The position numbers and the translations under genes are program-made. The notes beneath the pieces are model-generated. The model was not told where the DNA came from. It worked only from the letters and a program-made list of their open reading frames with translations, and searched no databases. Source: Gemmatimonadota bacterium (lineage in GTDB: Bacteria > Gemmatimonadota > Gemmatimonadetes > Longimicrobiales > Gaopeijiaceae). From it: DNA of 64,000 nucleotides. Below are positions 4,557 through 60,778 of the stretch, piece by piece (the first letter of the stretch is position 1; every line of letters starts with the position of its first letter). The stretch is taken from contig JAJDXM010000050.1 of the NCBI GenBank assembly GCA_022823225.1, positions 1 to 64,000 on the forward strand, read 5' to 3'.

Positions 4557-5275
4557 TCCGGATCGAAGGCGCGGTGAAGCGCTACGGCGCGGTCGTCGCG
4601 CTCGACGGCGTGTCTCTCCGCGTCGAAGCGGGCGAGTGCCTGGCTCTGGTCGGCGAAAGCGGATCCGGCAAGACAACGCTGTTGCGGACGATCAACCGCC
4701 TCACCGAGCTGGACCGGGGCCGGGTGCTGGTGCGAGGCCGGGCCGTGGACGCCATCGACCCGGTGCGCCTGCGCCGCTCGATAGGCTACGTACAGCAGGA
4801 CGGCGGCCTTATCCCGCACTGGACATGCGCGGCCAACGCTTCGCTGGTGCCTGGACTGCTGGGCCAGGACGACGCTGCCGGGCGCGGCAGGCGCGCACTG
4901 GAGTCGGTTGGGCTCGATCCGCACGCATTTGGCGACCGCTTTCCCCGGGAGTTGTCCGGAGGCCAGCGGCAGCGCGTCGCGATCGCGCGCGCAAACGCGG
5001 CCGGTCCCGACATCCTGCTGATGGACGAGCCGTTCGGCGCACTCGACGCGATCACCCGGACCGAAGCGCAGGACGCGTTCATCACGTTGCGAGAGGATGC
5101 GTCCGTGACCGCGGTCTTCGTCACCCACGACATGGCGGAGGCGCTCCGCGTGGCGACGCGCATCGCCGTCATGCGCACCGGCCGGATCACGGTCGAGGCC
5201 CCATCCGCCGATCTGCTCCGCCGAGCAACCGGCTACGCCGCCCGACTGCTCGAGAAGGCGGGCGTGACGGCATGA
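4547..5275 (+). CDS. Quaternary-amine-type ABC transporter ATP-binding protein (OpuCA/ProV family)
   Basis: A 242-residue cytoplasmic ATPase that powers uptake through the permease encoded next door. It has Walker A GESGSGKTTL, signature LSGGQRQRVAIA, Walker B ILLMDEPFGALD and the switch histidine in FVTHDMAEAL. The LMDEPFGALDAITR segment is typical of the glycine betaine/choline/osmoprotectant group. It stops after the ABC core with no C-terminal CBS pair, so the osmosensing module of OpuA/OpuC ATPases is absent. It starts inside the end of the dehydratase gene and shares an ATGA overlap with the downstream fusion gene: a compact three-gene operon. Confidence 0.9.
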   Translation: MALIRIEGAVKRYGAVVALDGVSLRVEAGECLALVGESGSGKTTLLRTINRLTELDRGRVLVRGRAVDAIDPVRLRRSIGYVQQDGGLIPHWTCAANASLVPGLLGQDDAAGRGRRALESVGLDPHAFGDRFPRELSGGQRQRVAIARANAAGPDILLMDEPFGALDAITRTEAQDAFITLREDASVTAVFVTHDMAEALRVATRIAVMRTGRITVEAPSADLLRRATGYAARLLEKAGVTA

Positions 5276-9192: not shown

Positions 9193-10689
9193 CTACCGCT
9201 CCGGTTTCGCCTCCAGCATATCCGAGCCTTCGGTCATGATGCGAAAGCCCTCGCGCCGCAGGAGAAGGAACACATCCTCCCCCGGTGCGATCCCGCACGC
9301 GCCCAGCGCCTCCCGCAAGCGCCCGATCTCCGGACCATTGGGGTCGTAGGACCTCCAGATGACGGAGGCGTCATGCACACCGGGCGGGTGCTCAAAGGGG
9401 ATCTTCACCGATCCGTCGAGCCCGACGCCCAGGTATTGGGCGATCGCCGGGGAGATCTTCTGACTGTTTCCCTTCAGGTGATGCTCCCCCACGGTGAACC
9501 GGAGCGCCGGCGTCCCATCGGGAGCCCAGACCACATCGCGGGCCTCGGAGAGGTCCTGCCGGGGCGCGGAGGGCGCATCCGCCACCCGCACATGATCGCC
9601 CAGGACCTCGAACTTCCTCGTCCCGAGATAGTTGCGGACCGTCGCTGGAAGGACATCGAACTGCCGGGGTATTTCCTGCACCAGCTGATCGATGCGAGCC
9701 TGCCCGCCACCCTCTTCTATCCGCCGGACCAGAGCGTCCACGACACCGCCGTAGGGCTCGTCGGCCCACTCCTCCAGGCCCCATTTGTCCTTGGTGAAAC
9801 GAACGAAGAGCGGGTCGGAGGAGAGCAGGCTGGAGAGCGACGAGTTGTCTCTCAGGCCGGACTCGAGCGCGATGGTCTGCCTGACGCTGGGCTCGCCGAT
9901 CCTTTCAAGTGCAAGGAAGACCCGGGCGCGCCGCGTGTCGCGCAGCACCAGGTGCCCCTGAAGCCGGACCAGGCCGGCGTTGCGTGCAAGCGACTCCCAT
10001 TCCGCCAGGCCTCCGGCACCGATGGCCTCGCGCAGTCCCTCCTCGTCGATCACGCCCGCGGCGTTGGCCAGTTCGGGGGCGTGCAGCCGCGCCGTCTCGA
10101 TGTGCTTGCGGAACTCAGCGTCCCCGACGACCCCGTCGAGGTATCTGTACCCTCCGGCCTGCATGACCGCCACTTCCGCCGACTCCCTCCACGCCGGGTC
10201 GGAGTCGCCCACGAAAAGGCCCAGGATCCGGCGAAACTTCCAGGGCGGCGCGGCCGGCCCCACGGCACGCCGCAGCCACAACCCGGCCCTCTTCACCACG
10301 GCCCCCACCTGATCCTCAACTCTCCAGCGAAGTCGGACCTCCAGCTGTCTGGCTCTCTCGCGGCTCACCCCGAACCTGCTTCCGAGCGCGGCAAGCCGTT
10401 CAGGAGTCCGGGAGTACGTCCGCTCCCGGGCGATCACACCCTCTCGTGCCGGGAGCGCCGCGAGAACCGTACTGAACTCGGCGCCGATCTGAACATCCGC
10501 CCTGAGGGCCTCTGCGGCGTCGGCAAAGCTGATTTCCGCGGCCTGGCCCCGCAGTCCGCTCTGTTCAAGCAGATTGCTGAAGTCGAGCTTGGCGAGATCG
10601 GCCAGACTCTCGGCCCCGTGAAAAAAAACAGCGCAGGCGAGAACGCGATCCAGCGCGTCGCGGTATGTCAGGGAATCAATCAAGTGCAA
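9193..10689 (-). CDS. Sigma-70 region 4-like, multi-helix-turn-helix regulator of unknown function
   Basis: A 498-residue soluble protein. Residues about 94-120 (RTPERLAALGSRFGVSRERA, then RQLE) match the sigma-70 region 4 helix-turn-helix that contacts the -35 element, but no sigma region 2 or 3 is visible. Two winged-helix-like repeats follow; one runs from ARVFLALERIGEPSVRQTIA to FVRFTKDKWGLEEW, the next from GVVDALVRRIEEGGG to VLGDHVRVAD. A C-terminal domain contains LRFTVGEHHLKGNSQKISP. This layout recalls bacterial 'sigma factor-like HTH' proteins of unknown role. The start appears to be TTG at 10689 without an obvious ribosome site, so the N-terminus is uncertain. It is followed 8 nt later by the MFS gene, which it may control. 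Confidence 0.7.
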   Translation of the reverse strand: MHLIDSLTYRDALDRVLACAVFFHGAESLADLAKLDFSNLLEQSGLRGQAAEISFADAAEALRADVQIGAEFSTVLAALPAREGVIARERTYSRTPERLAALGSRFGVSRERARQLEVRLRWRVEDQVGAVVKRAGLWLRRAVGPAAPPWKFRRILGLFVGDSDPAWRESAEVAVMQAGGYRYLDGVVGDAEFRKHIETARLHAPELANAAGVIDEEGLREAIGAGGLAEWESLARNAGLVRLQGHLVLRDTRRARVFLALERIGEPSVRQTIALESGLRDNSSLSSLLSSDPLFVRFTKDKWGLEEWADEPYGGVVDALVRRIEEGGGQARIDQLVQEIPRQFDVLPATVRNYLGTRKFEVLGDHVRVADAPSAPRQDLSEARDVVWAPDGTPALRFTVGEHHLKGNSQKISPAIAQYLGVGLDGSVKIPFEHPPGVHDASVIWRSYDPNGPEIGRLREALGACGIAPGEDVFLLLRREGFRIMTEGSDMLEAKPER

Positions 10690-53703: not shown

Positions 53704-54690
53704 ATGTCCCAATGGAGCATGCAAGCGCCCCGAAGGAGGACGGCGCGCCCGGAAGCAGCCGTCAAGCGCGCGGGCGCCCTGTTCGCGGCCATGTGGCTGG
53801 CTCTTGCCGCGACCGCCCGCCCGGCCCTCCCGCAGGCGCACCGGGTGGCCGGGGAGCCGGCTGGCGCGGAGATCGGAGCCGGGCCGGACAACACCGCCCT
53901 CACTTCCCCACCCGACTCGGTCCTCAGGATCATCTTCCTGGACGTGGGCCAGGGCGATGCCGTGCTCATCCGGGCGCCCGAGGGGCAGACGGCGCTTGTC
54001 GACGCCGGGCCGAGCGATGTGGTTCCGCTCCTTCGGCAGCTCGGGGTGGAGCGGATCGACCTGCTGGTGGCCACGCATCCGCACGCGGACCATATCGGCG
54101 GGATGGCGGGCGTGATCGAGTCGCTGCCCGTGCGTTTCTACATGGACAACGGCGATCCCCACACGACTCAGACCTACCGGCGGCTGATCGCGGCGCTGGA
54201 CGCCCGGCCCGAAATCACCTACCTGGAGGCGGTGCCGCGGACGATCTCGCTCGGGAGCGCATCGATCGAGGTGCTGCCCCTGCTGCCGCGCGGCGCGGTC
54301 GGGCTCAACGACCGTTCGGTCGCGCTGGTGGTGCGCTTCGGCGACTTCATGGCGTTTCTAAGCGGAGACTCGGAAGTGCGCCAGCTGTCGCATCTTGTGG
54401 GGCAGCGGGCCGTTCCCGACGTGGCGCTTCTCAAGGCGGCGCACCATGGCAGCGACAACGGGTTCACATGGGAGTTCCTGCGTGCGGCCAGGCCCGAAGT
54501 GGTGGTGATTTCCGTGGGGCGCAACGGCTACGGGCACCCGCGGGCCGAAGCGCTGGCGGCGTACTCGGGGGTGGGCGCGGCGGTACTGCGGACCGACCTG
54601 CACGGTCATGTGGAGGTGCGCGGGTACGGGGACGGGCGCCATGATGTCGTGCCCGGCGGCTGGCGCAGACGGGGGCGGCCGTGGCCGTGA
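53704..54690 (+). CDS. ComEC C-terminal-like metallo-beta-lactamase-fold hydrolase, exported
   Basis: A 328-residue protein with an N-terminal hydrophobic export segment (RAGALFAAMWLALAATARPA) followed by a stand-alone metallo-beta-lactamase domain. The domain has FLDVGQGDAVLIRAPEG, the zinc motif THPHADHIGG, LSGDSEVRQLSHL and LLKAAHHGSDNGFTWEF. These match the C-terminal nuclease-like domain of the DNA-uptake protein ComEC, here without its channel. It may act on extracytoplasmic nucleic acid; this is inference. The start is uncertain (ATG 53704 or 53719). DUF3006 follows, a known pairing. Confidence 0.82.
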   Translation: MSQWSMQAPRRRTARPEAAVKRAGALFAAMWLALAATARPALPQAHRVAGEPAGAEIGAGPDNTALTSPPDSVLRIIFLDVGQGDAVLIRAPEGQTALVDAGPSDVVPLLRQLGVERIDLLVATHPHADHIGGMAGVIESLPVRFYMDNGDPHTTQTYRRLIAALDARPEITYLEAVPRTISLGSASIEVLPLLPRGAVGLNDRSVALVVRFGDFMAFLSGDSEVRQLSHLVGQRAVPDVALLKAAHHGSDNGFTWEFLRAARPEVVVISVGRNGYGHPRAEALAAYSGVGAAVLRTDLHGHVEVRGYGDGRHDVVPGGWRRRGRPWP

Positions 54691-54697
54691 TGCGCTA

Positions 54698-54973
54698 TTG
54701 AGCGGCCCGGAGATCTGGACGGTCGACCGCGTGGAGGCGGGCGTCGCCGTGCTCGTCCGGGACGCTGACGAGCGGACGGCCGAAGTGCCGCTCTCCGGCT
54801 TGCCGGTGGGCACCCGGGAGGGCTCGGTCCTGCGGGTGCAGGACTCCGAGGGCCGGCCGGATTGGGGGGCTGCCGTGCTCGACGAGGAACTACGGCAGGC
54901 TCGCCTCAGCGAGGCCGAGCGGATTCTCCGGCGGCTCAAGCGGCGGGATCCGGGCGGGGACGTGGTGCTGTAG
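54698..54973 (+). CDS. DUF3006-domain protein
   Basis: A 91-residue protein with IWTVDRVEAGVAVLVRDADE, VPLSGLPVGTREGSVLRV and a helical tail LSEAERILRRLKRRD, the DUF3006 pattern of a small beta-barrel-like domain. The start is a TTG at 54698, 7 nt after the upstream stop; no ATG or GTG is available without running back into the metallo-beta-lactamase gene. Function unknown; its association with ComEC-like hydrolases is recurrent. Confidence 0.75.
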   Translation: MSGPEIWTVDRVEAGVAVLVRDADERTAEVPLSGLPVGTREGSVLRVQDSEGRPDWGAAVLDEELRQARLSEAERILRRLKRRDPGGDVVL

Positions 54974-55050: not shown

Positions 55051-55076
55051 ACCATATACCTTGTGGTGCAAGGTAC
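55051..55076 (+). promoter_or_regulatory. Palindromic operator candidate ahead of the PadR/prefix array
   Basis: TACCTTG-TGGTG-CAAGGTA is a perfect 7-bp inverted repeat at 55057-55075, nested in an outer GTACC ... GGTAC. It lies about 30 nt upstream of the first array gene and overlaps TATACC, a possible -10 box, with TTGCGG at 55034-55039 as a weak -35. A dimeric repressor bound here would block transcription. The PadR proteins encoded in the array are the obvious candidates. Confidence 0.6.
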
Positions 55077-55105
55077 ATTGCGGAGCATGGTAAAGGGAGC
55101 CTGGC

Positions 55106-55807
55106 ATGGAGGGCGCTGGACACAGGGGGTTCGATCTCGAGGCCCGGGTCGGCAGGTGGCGCGCGCGGCATGAGCGCACATCCTCCCTGTCGCCACGCGA
55201 GCTGGACGAGTTGGAAGATCACTTGCGCGCGCGCGTCGCGTTGCTAGTCGAGACGAGAGCGAGGCTCACTCCGAAGCAGGCGTTTGCGGTCGCGGCACAG
55301 GAACTCGGGAAGGCGGAAGCCCTGTCCGGCGAGTTCGCCAAATCGGGGAAGCTGCGGTGGCGGAAACTGCTGCTGGTGGGCTGGGCATTGTACGCGGTTT
55401 CGTTCCTCCTGCCGGTTTCCCAGGTCTATTGGACACCGGAATCGGCTATCCCCGGGCTCAGGACGGTCTGGGGATGGCAGGCGTTTGTCGGATCTTTCCT
55501 GACGACAGCGGGAAACCCCATCTCGCTGGCGAGCGGCCTTTCCAACGTTCTGGTTCTGGCGACCTTCCTGAAGCTGCGGGGCACCCGGCCTCCGGAGTCC
55601 ACCTGGCTCGTGCTCGGCCTCATCGGAGCCGCCGTGCTCAACCTCTATTGGGTTTCGGCGGGAGATCTGGATATCGGGATCGGCTACTGGGCCTGGGTAG
55701 CATCGTTTGCCTGTATCGGCTCGGCGCTCTGGATACGCGCCCGTGAGCGGGCTCCGGCCAAGCCGGCAACACCGGCCCGCACATCGGGTACGGGGGTTGT
55801 CGAATGA
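55106..55807 (+). CDS. Permease-prefix-domain membrane protein, array member 1
   Basis: A 233-residue protein. The N-terminal cytosolic helical 'permease prefix domain 1' (residues about 8-82) contains RTSSLSPRELDELEDHLRAR and FAVAAQELGKAEALSGEFAK. Four hydrophobic segments follow: WALYAVSFLLPV, ISLASGLSNVLVLATFL, WLVLGLIGAAVLNLYW and GYWAWVASFACIGSALWI. In typical family members the prefix precedes a MacB/FtsX ABC permease; here it is joined only to a four-helix bundle. The ATG has GGGAG about 7 nt upstream. First of six paralogues, just behind the palindromic operator. Function unknown. Confidence 0.8.
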   Translation: MEGAGHRGFDLEARVGRWRARHERTSSLSPRELDELEDHLRARVALLVETRARLTPKQAFAVAAQELGKAEALSGEFAKSGKLRWRKLLLVGWALYAVSFLLPVSQVYWTPESAIPGLRTVWGWQAFVGSFLTTAGNPISLASGLSNVLVLATFLKLRGTRPPESTWLVLGLIGAAVLNLYWVSAGDLDIGIGYWAWVASFACIGSALWIRARERAPAKPATPARTSGTGVVE

Positions 55808-55826
55808 CTGTCAAGAGGAGATGGCG

Positions 55827-56531
55827 ATGTTTGATCTGGATCGCGAAGTAAGACGCTGGCGAGAGCGTCAGGAGTGCACGTCATCGCTTGCGGCAGCCGA
55901 GCTGGACGAGTTGGAGGATCACCTGCGCGCACGCGTCAATCTGGAGATGGAGCTGATGGCGGTGCCGAGCCGCCGCCGGGCGTTCGCGCTCGCGTGTGAG
56001 GGGATCGGCGAGTCGAACGCGCTGTCCAGGGAATTCGCGAAGGCGGGTACGCCCCGGTGGCGGAAGGTGATGATCGCCGGGTGGACAATGTTCGGAGCGT
56101 CCCTGGTGTTGCCGGTCGCGACATACGATCGAGAGTTGGTTCGTTACGGCTTCGAAGTCCTCTTGACCTTGAGCGGTTTCAACCCGCCGACCCTCTCGAA
56201 CCTCATCGTCCTTTTGACGGTCCCGACCCTGTGGAATGCCCGGCACCTCCGCGGCCGCTGGCTGCCGCGACTGCTGGCGGGACTGCTGGGAGCGGTAGGG
56301 ATCTTCGCCCTGGTATTCGGCTTGGTGCTTACCTTTTGGCCGGAAGTGATCATCTCGGGGTTGGCCGGGTACCAACGGGCCATGTTCGCCAGCGCTCTGG
56401 GCCTCGGATTCTGGCTCTGGGCCGGCTCACTCCTCCCAGTCGCCACCGCCCTCGTGCTTCGCGCGCGTCACTTCGGGCAGATGCAGCCCGGGGCGTCGTT
56501 CACCGGCGCGAACGAAGGAGCATTCGAATGA
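55827..56531 (+). CDS. Permease-prefix-domain membrane protein, array member 2
   Basis: A 234-residue paralogue: prefix (MFDLDREVRRWRERQECTSS, ELDELEDHLRARVNLEMELM), then SREFAKAGTPRWRK at the membrane entry and four hydrophobic segments ending in LGFWLWAGSLLPVATALVLR. The second of two nearby ATGs (55827) has AGAGGAG at ideal distance; the first is at 55821. It is the most divergent in the prefix (LACEGIGESNALS). The stop overlaps the start of PadR copy 1 (ATGA), so membrane protein and regulator are coupled. Confidence 0.8.
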   Translation: MFDLDREVRRWRERQECTSSLAAAELDELEDHLRARVNLEMELMAVPSRRRAFALACEGIGESNALSREFAKAGTPRWRKVMIAGWTMFGASLVLPVATYDRELVRYGFEVLLTLSGFNPPTLSNLIVLLTVPTLWNARHLRGRWLPRLLAGLLGAVGIFALVFGLVLTFWPEVIISGLAGYQRAMFASALGLGFWLWAGSLLPVATALVLRARHFGQMQPGASFTGANEGAFE

Positions 56532-56869
56532 AGAAACAGGTGTCCAAGGAACTCGTCGCCGCCTCGTCCCGCCCGATGGTCCTCTCGATCCTGGCGGGCG
56601 GCGAGAGCTACGGCTACGAAATCCTCAAGCAGGTCAAGCTGCTCTCGGGCGGCAAGCTGGAGTGGTCGGACGGCATGCTCTACCCCGTCCTGCACCGGCT
56701 GGAGCGCGACGGGCTGATCTCCGGCCGCTGGCAACTCACCGACGAGGGCCGGCGTCGCAAGTACTACAGGCTGACCACGCGCGGCAAGCGCCAGCTGGCC
56801 ACCGACCGCGAGGCCTGGCGAACGGTGCACGGAGCCCTCGAACTGTCATGGGGAGGGAGCAATGTCTGA
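56528..56869 (+). CDS. PadR-family transcriptional repressor, copy 1
   Basis: A 113-residue winged-helix repressor. PMVLSILAGGESYGYEILKQ is the helix-turn-helix opening, DGMLYPVLHRLERDGLISGRW the recognition helix and wing, and GRRRKYYRLTTRGKRQL the wing strand. The short C-terminal helix is of the PadR-s2 type that dimerises. It differs from copy 2 at 11 of 113 positions. It is translated from an ATGA overlap and overlaps the next membrane-protein gene by 8 nt, so it probably represses its own array. Confidence 0.93.
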   Translation: MKKQVSKELVAASSRPMVLSILAGGESYGYEILKQVKLLSGGKLEWSDGMLYPVLHRLERDGLISGRWQLTDEGRRRKYYRLTTRGKRQLATDREAWRTVHGALELSWGGSNV

Positions 56870-57554
56870 TCTGGATGCAAGAATCCGGGACTGGAGGCAG
56901 CTGCAGGAACGCGAGACCTCCCTTTCACCTCGCGAGCTGGATGAACTCGAGGACCACCTTCGGGCGCATGCCGACCTCGAAATGGAGCTGAACGCGGTGC
57001 TGACGCCGGAGCAGGCGTTCGCGATCGCGCGGCGCGAACTGGGCAAGCCGGCGACCCTGTCGAAGGAGTTCGCGAAGGCGGGGCAGCCGAGGTGGAGGCG
57101 GCTGGTTTTCGCCGGATGCGCCATGTTCGTGGTGTCGTTTGCTCTGCCCGCGGTGGGCGAACTCACGACGAACCACGGACTCTTCATCATGAATCACGGC
57201 GCCGTCTCGGGCTGGGGTGCTTTCTCGAATGCGCTTTTCTGGGGTGACGGACTCGGCACAGTGAGCGCGTTGACCAACCTGCTCATGGTCGCCGGCCTTG
57301 TTACCCTGGCGATCAGGCGCCGGCCGCCCAGGCGGTGGTTTCCCGCGCTTCTGGCATTGGCAGGAGTCATGAACCTGGTTTATTGGCCGATCTTTGCGGT
57401 GTCGAGGGGTGATCCGCTCACGCTTCTTCTGCCGGGCTACTGGGCCTGGGCAGCCTCGTTCTTCTGCGTGTCGGGAGGGCTGTGGATGCTCGCCAGGGAG
57501 CGGGCGGGCGCCTTCTTCGGCCCCAGCCGCGAACTCCAGCCAGGGGAGGAGTAG
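56862..57554 (+). CDS. Permease-prefix-domain membrane protein, array member 3
   Basis: A 230-residue paralogue. The prefix shows ETSLSPRELDELEDHLRAHA, AFAIARRELGKPATLSKEFA and KAGQPRWRRLVFAG. About four hydrophobic segments follow, the last being PGYWAWAASFFCVSGGLWML, closest to members 1 and 6. The start ATG lies within the end of PadR copy 1. First gene of the second membrane-membrane-PadR unit. Confidence 0.8.
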   Translation: MSDLDARIRDWRQLQERETSLSPRELDELEDHLRAHADLEMELNAVLTPEQAFAIARRELGKPATLSKEFAKAGQPRWRRLVFAGCAMFVVSFALPAVGELTTNHGLFIMNHGAVSGWGAFSNALFWGDGLGTVSALTNLLMVAGLVTLAIRRRPPRRWFPALLALAGVMNLVYWPIFAVSRGDPLTLLLPGYWAWAASFFCVSGGLWMLARERAGAFFGPSRELQPGEE

Positions 57555-58292
57555 ATGTTCGATCCGGACGGAGAGATTCGGCGCTGGCGGGAGCGGCAGG
57601 AGCGCGAGACCTCCCTGTCTCCGCGCGAGCTGGACGAGCTGGAGGACCATCTGCGGGCACGGGTGCAACTGGAGCGGGAGCTCGATCCGGTGCTGCCACC
57701 GGCCCAGGCTTTCACGATCGCCCTGCGCAATCTGGGCGAGCCCGTTGCGCTGTCGAAGGAATTCGCGAAGGCAGGGAGGCCGCGCTGGCGGCGGTGGCTC
57801 CTTACCGGCTGGGCGATGTACGGCGCGTCCTGGTTTCTCCCGGTGATCGATGCGCCGTTTTTCGGCACCGTCCGGGGGTACGAGACGCTGGAATGGGCAG
57901 GCGGCGTGACCGGTGCACTACTCTTCTGCTGCTCCAACCTTGCCATGGCAGCGACCGCGCTGGTGCTCTGGCGCGCCCGCCTTTCAGCCAACCGCTGGGT
58001 TTGGCGATCGGTGGGAGCCGTTGGCGTGTCCGCGCTCGTCTGGATGGGCGGAGGCCTGATCTATGGCTCGATTCAGCGCGGCGACATGAGCTTGATGGTC
58101 CCTCCCGTACTCACGGTGGGTTTCTGGACCTGGGCCGCTTCGTACATCTGCGTGGCGGCCGCGCTGCGGCTGCGTGCAAGGGACGGGGCGTCTGCAGCGG
58201 TGAGAGCTGTGGAAGCGATTGCGCCAGGCGCTCCCGCCCGGGGCACCTCGCCCGATGCAACCGAGGGACTCCGGCGATCGTACCGGACATAG
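57555..58292 (+). CDS. Permease-prefix-domain membrane protein, array member 4
   Basis: A 245-residue paralogue whose ATG abuts the stop of member 3. The prefix (MFDPDGEIRRWRERQERETS, ELDELEDHLRARVQLERELD) is followed by GWAMYGASWFLPV, a cysteine-containing second helix (GALLFCCSNLAMAATALVLW) and a last helix VGFWTWAASYICVAAALRLR. The C-terminal tail is longer than in the others. PadR copy 2 follows after 10 nt. Confidence 0.8.
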   Translation: MFDPDGEIRRWRERQERETSLSPRELDELEDHLRARVQLERELDPVLPPAQAFTIALRNLGEPVALSKEFAKAGRPRWRRWLLTGWAMYGASWFLPVIDAPFFGTVRGYETLEWAGGVTGALLFCCSNLAMAATALVLWRARLSANRWVWRSVGAVGVSALVWMGGGLIYGSIQRGDMSLMVPPVLTVGFWTWAASYICVAAALRLRARDGASAAVRAVEAIAPGAPARGTSPDATEGLRRSYRT

Positions 58293-58302
58293 GAGCGATG
58301 CA

Positions 58303-58644
58303 ATGAAGAAACAGGTATCCAGGGAGCTCGTGGCCGCTTCGTCGCGCCCCATGGTGCTTTCCATCCTGGCGGGCGGAGAGAACTACGGCTACGAGATCCT
58401 CAAGCAGGTCAAGCTGCTGTCGGGCGGCAAGCTGGAGTGGTCGGACGGAATGCTCTACCCCGTCCTGCACCGGCTGGAGCGGGACGGGGTGATCGCGAGC
58501 CGCTGGCAACTGACCGAAGAGGGACGGCGTCGGAAGTACTACAGATTGACGGGTCGCGGAAAGCGCCAGCTGGCGGCCGATCGCGAGAACTGGCGCACGG
58601 TCCACGGGGCCCTCGAGGCATCATGGGGAGGCAGCCATGTATGA
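58303..58644 (+). CDS. PadR-family transcriptional repressor, copy 2
   Basis: A 113-residue near-duplicate of copy 1 (about 90% identical), with the entire SGGKLEWSDGMLYPVLHRLE recognition segment unchanged. Substitutions cluster after it (GVIASRW against GLISGRW) and near the C-terminus. An unchanged recognition helix suggests both copies bind the same operator and may form mixed dimers. GGAG lies about 8 nt upstream of the ATG; the stop overlaps member 5 by 8 nt, exactly as copy 1 overlaps member 3. Confidence 0.93.
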   Translation: MKKQVSRELVAASSRPMVLSILAGGENYGYEILKQVKLLSGGKLEWSDGMLYPVLHRLERDGVIASRWQLTEEGRRRKYYRLTGRGKRQLAADRENWRTVHGALEASWGGSHV

Positions 58645-59299
58645 TCTGGACGGACGGGTTCGGCAGTGGCGGGAGCGGCAGGAGCGCACCTCGTCGCTGT
58701 CGCCAAGGGAGTTGGACGAGCTGGAGGACCATCTGCGCGCGCGGGTCGACCTAGAGATGGAGCTGAACGCGGTAATGGCGCCGGAGCGCGCGTTCGCGAT
58801 CGCCCGGCACGAGCTGGGCGAGGCGGCGGCGCTGTCGAAGGAGTTCGCGAAGGTTGGCAAGCCGAGGTGGCGGCGGTGGCTGGTGGCGGGGTGGGCCGCG
58901 TATGTGGCGGCGTGGTTCCTGCCGGTGGCGAAGATAGGACTGTTCGGCGGCGTGGACGTGTTCTACGGACATGAACTGTTCCGCGATTCGGAGCTTCTTG
59001 TTTTCGTTCCGGTCCACCTGGCGATGCTGGCAACCGTTTCGGCGCTGTGGGGTGGACGCATCTCCCGCGCGCGGTGGCTGCGCCGGCTCCTCGGGTGCGC
59101 GGGCGGCCTGGTTCTCGGGTTCATGGTCGCGGCCGCGTGCTACGCTGTCTCCACCGAAGGCCTGGGCATGTTGTCCTGGTTCGTCCAGATCCCGTTGGCG
59201 ATCTGGTCCTGGGGCGCCTCCATGGTGTGCGCGGCGGTCGGGCTGCGATTGCGCGCGAAGGAGTGGGCGTCGGCGACCCCGAAGAGAGTATCCGCATAG
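58637..59299 (+). CDS. Permease-prefix-domain membrane protein, array member 5
   Basis: A 220-residue paralogue, the shortest. Prefix: MYDLDGRVRQWRERQERTSS, DLEMELNAVMAPERAFAIAR and SKEFAKVGKPRWRRWL. Hydrophobic segments include AAYVAAWFLPVA, LLVFVPVHLAMLATVSALW, LLGCAGGLVLGFMVAAACYA and LAIWSWGASMVCAAVGLRLR. It opens the third unit and overlaps PadR copy 2 by 8 nt. Confidence 0.8.
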   Translation: MYDLDGRVRQWRERQERTSSLSPRELDELEDHLRARVDLEMELNAVMAPERAFAIARHELGEAAALSKEFAKVGKPRWRRWLVAGWAAYVAAWFLPVAKIGLFGGVDVFYGHELFRDSELLVFVPVHLAMLATVSALWGGRISRARWLRRLLGCAGGLVLGFMVAAACYAVSTEGLGMLSWFVQIPLAIWSWGASMVCAAVGLRLRAKEWASATPKRVSA

Positions 59300-59316
59300 T
59301 CCACCGGAGGCAGACG

Positions 59317-60030
59317 ATGTTCGATCTGGACGTGGAGATTCGGCGCTGGCGGGAGCGGCGGGAGCACACGTCGTCACTGTCGCCGCGCGAGCTGGACGAG
59401 CTGGAGGACCACCTGCGCGCGCGGGTCGATCTGGAGATGGAGATCAACCGAGTGCTGGCGCCGGAGCGGGCGTTCGCGATCGCGCGGCGGGAGCTGGGGA
59501 AGCCGGCAGCGCTCGAGAAGGAGTTCGCGAAGGCGGGGAAGCCGAGGTGGAGGCGGTGGCTGCTGGCGGGGTGGGCGGTTTTTGCGGCTTCGTTTTGTCT
59601 GCCGGTGGTGAACCTGGGTTCCTTCCTGGGGGGATGGGCCTTCGGCTGGGAGGCGGCGATCCTTCCGTTCATCGCCCTTTCCCCGCCCCCATTGCTTGGC
59701 GATCCGGGTCCACTGTCTCCGGGAGAGGTCGTTTCTCTCCTTCCCGCCTTCCTCAGCTCACTCACCAACCTTTTGATGCTTGCCACGCTGCTGGAGCTGC
59801 GCGCCACGCGGCCACGCCGGACTCGCTGGCTGGCCGGGCTTGTCGGCGGAGGCGCGGCGCTCAACCTCCAATGGTTGCTCGGGTGGGCGGAACCGGTCGT
59901 GTTTCCTCCGCTGGGCATGGGGATCGGCTATTGGGCCTGGATTGCGTCCTTCTTCTGCGTCGCCACGGCCCTGTGGATGCGCGTCAGGGAGCTGAAGCCG
60001 GCCAGACCGCAGCCGTCGGGGGCTCGATAG
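59317..60030 (+). CDS. Permease-prefix-domain membrane protein, array member 6
   Basis: A 237-residue paralogue closing the array. Prefix: MFDLDVEIRRWRERREHTSS, VDLEMEINRVLAPERAFAIA and KEFAKAGKPRWRRWLLAGWA. Four hydrophobic segments follow, the last being GIGYWAWIASFFCVATALWM. GGAGG lies about 7 nt upstream of the ATG. No PadR follows: the third unit ends here, and a HEPN/MNT pair lies on the opposite strand. Confidence 0.8.
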   Translation: MFDLDVEIRRWRERREHTSSLSPRELDELEDHLRARVDLEMEINRVLAPERAFAIARRELGKPAALEKEFAKAGKPRWRRWLLAGWAVFAASFCLPVVNLGSFLGGWAFGWEAAILPFIALSPPPLLGDPGPLSPGEVVSLLPAFLSSLTNLLMLATLLELRATRPRRTRWLAGLVGGGAALNLQWLLGWAEPVVFPPLGMGIGYWAWIASFFCVATALWMRVRELKPARPQPSGAR

Positions 60031-60057: not shown

Positions 60058-60426
60058 CTACGGAGCCGCGCCGAGCACCCAGACGGCCTCTTCGTCCATC
60101 ATTCGCGCGAACCGCCCGCCCCTCCGTCTCATGCGCTCCCATTCTTCGATGGTGTAGACGAGCAGGTCGGTGGGCACCGGCAGGCGCTCGCAGGGCCACT
60201 CGCGGTTGCGCTCCAGCCGGGGCACCTCGCTCTCGCTGACGACAGCCACGAGATCGAGATCACTGCCGAACCCCGTATCGCCGCGCGCATGGGAGCCGAA
60301 GCAGGCGAGCGCGACCAGATCGGGTCGAGTCGCCGCCAGGGCATTGGCCCAATCCCGAAGGGCCCCCAAAACCTGATCAGGCGTCGGCCAGCGCTTTACG
60401 AACGTAGTCGAGGACGTTACGGGCAT
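60058..60426 (-). CDS. MNT-type minimal nucleotidyltransferase (antitoxin of the HEPN/MNT pair)
   Basis: A 122-residue protein with an intact GSx10DxD active site (CFGSHARGDTGFGSDLDLVA), as in MntA antitoxins that inactivate HEPN RNases by adding AMP to a tyrosine. The C-terminus (TDLLVYTIEEWERM) fits the family. As drawn it overlaps the HEPN gene by 50 nt from an ATG; a TTG at 60369 just after the HEPN stop is an alternative start. It is convergent with the last array gene, 27 nt away. Confidence 0.88.
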   Translation of the reverse strand: MPVTSSTTFVKRWPTPDQVLGALRDWANALAATRPDLVALACFGSHARGDTGFGSDLDLVAVVSESEVPRLERNREWPCERLPVPTDLLVYTIEEWERMRRRGGRFARMMDEEAVWVLGAAP

Positions 60427-60778
60427 ATTCCACCGCCTGCGAACTGTGCAGTGATCCGTAGTGCTCGAAAGCCGGGCCTTCGTCGTGCCCGTTCGGATAT
60501 CTGGCAGGAATGTAGTAGTTGTCCAGCACCCGCGCCCTCTCGATCAGTTCCCGCGGCGGCGGGTCGGGCAACTCGCCGAGCAGCCTTGCCGCGGCATGAC
60601 CCCACGCCTCCTGACCGTGCGCCAGGTGGAGCGCCCTGGCTGCCTTTTCCGACGCCTGATGAGCAGCAAAGCACGCCCAGTCGTGCCTGCCATCCTCGTG
60701 CGAGGCGATGGCTTGTTCCAGGTCGTGTTCGGCCTGGGCGAACCAGTCTTTTGATCGGTTCGGCATTGGTCGGCTCAT
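60377..60778 (-). CDS. HEPN-domain protein (toxin of the HEPN/MNT pair)
   Basis: A 133-residue all-helical protein. KDWFAQAEHDLEQAIASHED and CFAAHQASEKAARALHLAHG form the first helices. VLDNYYIPARYPNGHDEG carries the Rx4H ribonuclease motif (Arg-Tyr-Pro-Asn-Gly-His) and the Tyr-rich stretch that is AMPylated in HepT proteins. Encoded upstream of its MNT partner in the usual order, it should be an RNase kept inactive by AMPylation. Confidence 0.88.
   Translation of the reverse strand: MSRPMPNRSKDWFAQAEHDLEQAIASHEDGRHDWACFAAHQASEKAARALHLAHGQEAWGHAAARLLGELPDPPPRELIERARVLDNYYIPARYPNGHDEGPAFEHYGSLHSSQAVEYARNVLDYVRKALADA

Follow-up and report, generated by a model that had tools for sequence, protein, structure and literature searches.

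A PadR-linked operon of six head-bearing membrane proteins in a Gemmatimonadota genome: a candidate multi-head variant of the HAAS-PadR dyad

Background

What role do six related membrane proteins play when they are encoded with two nearly identical PadR repressors in one operon? The question is raised by a 64,000-nucleotide (nt) stretch of a Gemmatimonadota genome (order Longimicrobiales, family Gaopeijiaceae; assembly GCA_022823225.1, contig JAJDXM010000050.1, positions 1 to 64,000; henceforth the window), in which eight + strand open reading frames (ORFs) fill positions 55106-60030 in the order M-M-R-M-M-R-M-M (M, membrane protein; R, PadR). We lean, with somewhat more confidence than doubt, towards an expanded, autoregulated PadR/membrane-protein operon that would work like the HAAS-PadR dyad, with several four-helix sensors acting on one repressor pool.

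The dyad was predicted to replace two-component systems at the membrane, its HAAS domain includes prefixes of the present kind, among them the MacB/FtsX permease prefix, and HAAS fusions to uncharacterised domains of six, four, and two transmembrane (TM) helices are given (Ravi et al. 2024, PMC11237479). In the Listeria operon lltR-lmo0600-lmo0601, which encodes PadR-DUF1700-DUF4097, loss of LltR raises expression 100-150 fold, and cells that overproduce the DUF1700 membrane partner grow poorly at low temperature (PMC6624303). Because the dyad, with its 4TM fusions and membrane-signalling role, and the autorepressed Listeria operon had both been published, the array is not the undescribed system that an earlier annotation made from the sequence (the original prediction) took it for; a system of this design had already been put forward, and the array is a variant with several heads on one operon.

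Operon, operator, and coupled translation

The features of the array are as follows (window coordinates; aa, amino acids).

55057-55075, unstranded: operator site 1, TACCTTGTGGTGCAAGGTA, a perfect 7+7 palindrome with an N5 core
55074-55092, unstranded: operator site 2, TACATTGCGGAGCATGGTA, at a 17-bp period from site 1, which it overlaps
55106-55807, + strand: M1, 233 aa, perm_prefix_1/HAAS-like head and four-helix membrane protein
55827-56531, + strand: M2, 234 aa, architecture as M1, recombinant relative to L007_8015 (head alike, membrane half not)
56528-56869, + strand: R1, PadR repressor, 113 aa, PF03551 E 1.2e-24
56852-56856, + strand: Shine-Dalgarno site GGAGG for M3, within the R1 codons for SWGGSNV and stop, 5 nt before the M3 ATG
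56862-57554, + strand: M3, 230 aa, start 8 nt within R1
57555-58292, + strand: M4, 245 aa
58303-58644, + strand: R2, PadR repressor, 113 aa, PF03551 E 4.6e-24
58627-58631, + strand: Shine-Dalgarno site GGAGG for M5, within the R2 codons for SWGGSHV and stop
58637-59299, + strand: M5, 220 aa, start 8 nt within R2
59317-60030, + strand: M6, 237 aa, AlphaFold model with a predicted local distance difference test (pLDDT) score of 87

All eight ORFs are present in the M-M-R, M-M-R, M-M order originally described, and the equal overlaps at the R1-M3 and R2-M5 junctions are indeed exactly 8 nt each; M2 and R1 overlap by 4 nt (ATGA), and M4 and R2 are separated by a 10-nt gap.

Upstream of the array lies a double palindrome, newly described here, TACCTTG-N5-CAAGGTA/TACATTG-N5-CATGGTA, which ends 13 bp before M1. 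The consensus common to the upstream regions of the related operons, TATACCTTG-N5-CAAGGTACATTG-N5-CATGGTA, matches the window without a mismatch at 55056-55092; in shuffled versions of the window, its first 24 bases found no match even when 3 mismatches were allowed. The 4.19-Mb genome has a single exact copy of the palindrome; one other site, at 2 mismatches, is within the chance level given by the control. Six exact matches were found in 59 genomes, 6/6 upstream of an M/PadR operon, and the reversed control pattern gave 0 matches; the site recurs upstream of most related operons, with the bipartite arrangement kept in most operator-bearing loci. Its geometry (TACC-N11-GGTA) is similar to that of the autoregulatory site of C. 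difficile PadR1 (TACT-N11/12-AGTA; PMC5050560). The operon is read as autoregulated because the operator is unique in the genome, every exact match lies upstream of such an operon, and the control found none; as the simplest case, we infer that PadR binds the site, which would make an essentially closed autoregulatory loop. Scans for sigma-70 promoters and terminators showed no excess over shuffles, and a search against Rfam found zero RNAs.

The PadR genes also carry a signal for the membrane gene that follows. A conserved WGG by the PadR C-terminus is encoded as TGG GGA GG, placing GGAGG 5 nt before the M start codons in the window, and 31 of the 36 related PadR genes are followed by an M ORF whose start lies at exactly -8, counts that are not independent since many of the loci are orthologous. 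Three PadR genes without a following M (loci L013, L014, and L018) have lost the signal and end in SWRGNHG or SWRGNRG, with no start codon there. These sequences support a coupling not described before, in which the PadR C-terminus encodes the Shine-Dalgarno site of the next M gene. Chance does not account for the gene order or for the 8-nt overlap, given that these 31/36 genes show both.

Operator-like sites at L013 8115-8151 and L018 8108-8144 lie downstream of a PadR gene without the coupling tail and possibly control a further gene. Lipoprotein-like proteins (L021 4601-5869, L022 5097-6533, and L029 9168-10385, the last with weak SGL/6-bladed propeller matches) are encoded downstream of either an M gene under operator control or the array as a whole, and are possible further regulon members in these relatives.

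R1 and R2 are 90% identical and score above the PF03551 gathering threshold (86.5 and 84.6 bits, cut-off 27) and below the cut-off of TIGR03433 (padR_acidobact; 92.8 bits for R1 and 94.7 for R2, cut-off 101.8). Profile matches to solved PadR structures reach E-values down to 1e-22, the closest including the LmrR type. In most loci a stand-alone PadR adjoins a head protein, as in the HAAS-PadR dyad. The membrane-linked PadR regulatory module that had been proposed is supported.

A conserved head on divergent membrane halves

The six M proteins (pairwise identity 42-55%) share 44 invariant alignment columns, mostly within the 80-residue head; the common motifs noted originally (ELDELEDHLRA, EFAKxG..RW, and W-x-W-x-S) are among them. 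Each protein is predicted to consist of a cytoplasmic helical head and four membrane helices with both termini inside (positive-inside rule), based on hydropathy, the M6 model, and loop charge bias across 78 homologues. In the model, the head (residues 4-74) forms four helices (4-18, 23-43, 49-60, and 63-72), and TM1 and TM2 are separated by a small beta hairpin on the outer face.

With hhalign, the M head matched PadR-linked perm_prefix_1/DUF4153-like membrane proteins of the same order at a probability of 99.5% (E 3.5e-22) and MacB-type permease prefixes at 91% (E 1.1e-6), and 63 of the 78 homologues match perm_prefix_1 (NF038403) at E<=1 (best 1.3e-7). Profile comparison thus places the heads as homologues of perm_prefix_1, a known kind of head, as the original prediction had held. 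The window proteins themselves score at best 23.5-24.4 bits and miss the 30-bit cut-off, which perm_prefix_1 reference proteins of the same order exceed (43.6-45.2 bits). HAAS (PF22564) does not appear in the families listed for these 78 homologues, and hhalign against four HAAS-hit sequences gave a probability of 23%; the GxP motif, which marks the third helix in HAAS, is partly kept (G61 in 74/74 and P63 in 33/74 heads). The head alone had no significant match in the PDB, DUF1048 (2O3L, cited as HAAS) not being among the matches listed, and whole M proteins matched no solved structure significantly by sequence.

For the membrane half, nothing scored above the cut-offs of Pfam or NCBIfam in the members scanned, that is, no known transporter or permease family; profile-profile comparison with the DUF4153-like relatives gave a probability of 0.1%. 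The claimed absence of a MacB or FtsX domain holds for all six proteins, as does that of a nearby ATPase, the sole ABC ATPase gene of the window (4601-5035) lying ~50 kb from the array. Structurally, the M6 membrane half resembles the LetA transmembrane domain (Z 10.7, root-mean-square deviation 3.7, 134 residues) and TARPs (Z about 9), at ~10% identity and a best Foldseek E-value of 0.4. Z-scores under 13 are frequent among helical bundles, and neither score is high enough to exclude a generic bundle, so the modelled LetA/claudin/TARP resemblance is weakly indicated and serves as a lead only.

The array can be placed beside known systems. With the HAAS-PadR dyad (PMC11237479) it has in common a stand-alone PadR beside a membrane protein whose N-terminus forms a helical head; it differs by its six heads and two PadR genes under one operator in one operon, by lacking PspC, Toastrack, and LiaF domains, and in that Pfam HAAS is unmatched and GxP only partly kept. 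As in the Listeria lltR operon (PMC6624303), PadR is linked to an operon with a multi-spanning membrane partner, whereas that operon, from another phylum and with experimentally established autorepression, has single copies, another membrane domain, and a DUF4097 partner. Perm_prefix_1 proteins with TIGR03433-type PadRs (ADOP/MacB-type and DUF4153-like) share the homologous head and a PadR gene immediately upstream, but the membrane half of the window proteins is unrelated to theirs in sequence, and the window heads and both PadRs lie under the curated cut-offs.

Distribution and history of the array

Within its own genome, every M gene of the array type is confined to this locus. Relatives of the array were found in 20/22 genomes of the same genus and, at E<=1e-20, in 39/395 genomes and 4/138 genera of a Gemmatimonadota sample, which, with the recurrence of order and overlap given above, excludes a one-off arrangement. 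A scan of GTDB genomes yielded 35 loci, nearly all Gemmatimonadota; two carry the label Candidatus Palauibacter, and a few are from bins named as Gammaproteobacteria. The arrays hold 1 to 8 M genes, most commonly in the order PadR-M-M(-M), with two M genes preceding the first PadR in the closest group. Several loci are flanked by secD/metallo-hydrolase genes on one side and an S9 peptidase gene on the other, so that the site was, judging from this synteny, probably inherited vertically; the survey of recurrent neighbours found these flanking genes only and no recurring partner gene. The genome also contains a second PadR with a prefix-like four-helix membrane protein (L086 4451-5657, - strand; contig C63 near 10041-10497), whose membrane domain is unlike that of the array and which adjoins BlaI/M56-like genes.

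The proposed growth of the array by duplication of a three-gene M-M-R unit did not survive phylogenetic analysis. Trees reject the grouping of M1/M3/M5 (approximately unbiased test, p 2.2e-5) and of M4/M6 (p 6.9e-4): the M1, M3, and M6 lineages form one clade, and M4 and M5 fall in another. Sister species hold orthologues in the same order, most relatives read R-M-M(-M), R1 and R2 each cluster with their own orthologue in L007/L008, and 4/6 window M genes have orthologues in both loci with the order kept. Since the PadR and M lineages group with their own orthologues, the trees date the array before these species and point to recombination, not recent M-M-R copying, as the process that moulded it.

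Recombination is visible in the genes themselves. M2 and L007_8015 are 87-93% identical in DNA for most of their first 260 nt, after which identity falls to 35-60%, M3 and L008_3331 show the same pattern, and L011_7694 and L007_11910 show the reverse, with the breakpoint near nt 260, by the junction of head and membrane half. Head and membrane trees conflict in a manner consistent with swaps, as heads and membrane halves were evidently exchanged by recombination. Among orthologues, the ratio of nonsynonymous to synonymous substitution rates (dN/dS) is about 0.07-0.1 for PadR, roughly 0.1-0.25 for the head, and roughly 0.3-0.6 for the membrane half; by these estimates the heads are conserved and the membrane halves diverge fast, which is a new observation.

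Some related loci hold irregular copies: an ORF fusing two heads (L008 2889-4083), a head joined to the last helix (L011 6092-6298), and truncated or frameshifted M genes (L024 3901-4596 and L036 7566-8673), remnants of recombination and decay. Decayed M copies occur in L011, L024, L036, G010, G018, and G022.

Proposed mechanism

In the preferred reading, the near-identical R1 and R2 would form a single repressor pool that binds the double palindrome before M1 and silences the operon, its only clear target in the genome. Each M protein, a conserved cytoplasmic head on a variable four-helix membrane domain, would bind PadR through the head. A change in the membrane, such as altered lipid packing or an inserted amphiphile or antibiotic, would be sensed by the membrane domain, upon which the head would change shape and PadR leave the operator, and more M would be made until the pool is rebalanced, M being both sensor and product. 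Coupled translation from the Shine-Dalgarno site in the PadR stop region would set the PadR:M ratio, and membrane domains recombined onto one kind of head could let one repressor answer several membrane states. The earlier ideas of an envelope-stress sensor and a "regulator sink" are plausible for the M proteins.

A bolder version, which we put forward tentatively and hold to be possible but short of probable, is an array of constant heads and variable bodies, in which recombination places fast-evolving four-helix sensors on a PadR-binding head, and one repressor pool integrates many signals without a kinase, sigma factor, or outside target; the body may be a bacterial relative of the LetA/claudin fold. 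The dyad, a membrane signalling pair without a kinase, was only recently predicted by computation, and the array offers a setting in which it can be tested: the operator is defined, the regulatory loop appears essentially closed, heads have been swapped naturally, and PadR genes not followed by an M have lost the coupling signal. If the reading is true, many unannotated "permease prefix domain" proteins would be membrane sensors and not transporters.

Several points weigh against the dyad-like reading. Pfam HAAS is unmatched throughout the organism's own genome, and the window M proteins lie under the curated perm_prefix_1 cut-off (best 24 against 30 bits). Frameshifted or deleted M copies in related species mean that single copies may be dispensable. 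PadRs with this fold are able to take up small ligands themselves, so that the heads need not sense.

Alternative explanations

The main rival, which we regard as rather unlikely, is that the PadRs sense a hydrophobic compound as LmrR does, with the M proteins as regulated effectors (membrane stabilisers, exporters, or immunity-type proteins) whose heads only anchor or assemble. LmrR-type structures are among the closest solved relatives of R1 and R2, and drugs release LmrR from its operator (PMC5428041, PMC4235314). The operator is essentially operon-specific, which makes the M proteins the only clear output, and the Listeria phenotype arises from excess of the membrane partner (PMC6624303). 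Against this stands the finding that conservation in M lies in the head and not in the membrane half, which is what a surface shared with a partner would lead one to expect; moreover, in the same order the PadR-linked head also occurs on unrelated, DUF4153-like membrane proteins, and such travelling together with PadR speaks for head-PadR communication, as in the dyad-like reading.

It is less likely still that the array merely diversifies, its copies arising and decaying by recombination while one or two M proteins suffice. The range of M numbers per locus, the decayed copies and the L008 head-head fusion, and the intragenic recombination would all fit; yet the same-order orthologues of 4/6 window genes in L007 and L008 and a dN/dS well below 1 in both halves argue that most copies are maintained.

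That the M proteins are remnants or subunits of a MacB/ADOP ABC permease after loss of the ATPase is very improbable: heads of this type are known above all from PadR-linked MacB-type permeases and one full ADOP permease is still encoded on another contig of the genome, but the membrane halves match no MacB/FtsX model, no Pfam or NCBIfam permease above cut-off, and none of the prefix-bearing proteins in the phylum sample, no ATPase lies within about 50 kb, and the membrane half is under purifying selection.

Neighbouring genes

Just upstream of the operon, a DUF3006 protein (PF11213) is encoded at 54608-54973, overlapping a gene of the metallo-beta-lactamase fold. Directly downstream, on the - strand, genes for a nucleotidyltransferase (60058-60426; PF01909 E 7.7e-7) and a HEPN protein (60377-60778; PF05168 E 1.1e-27) are likely a HEPN-MNT toxin-antitoxin pair.

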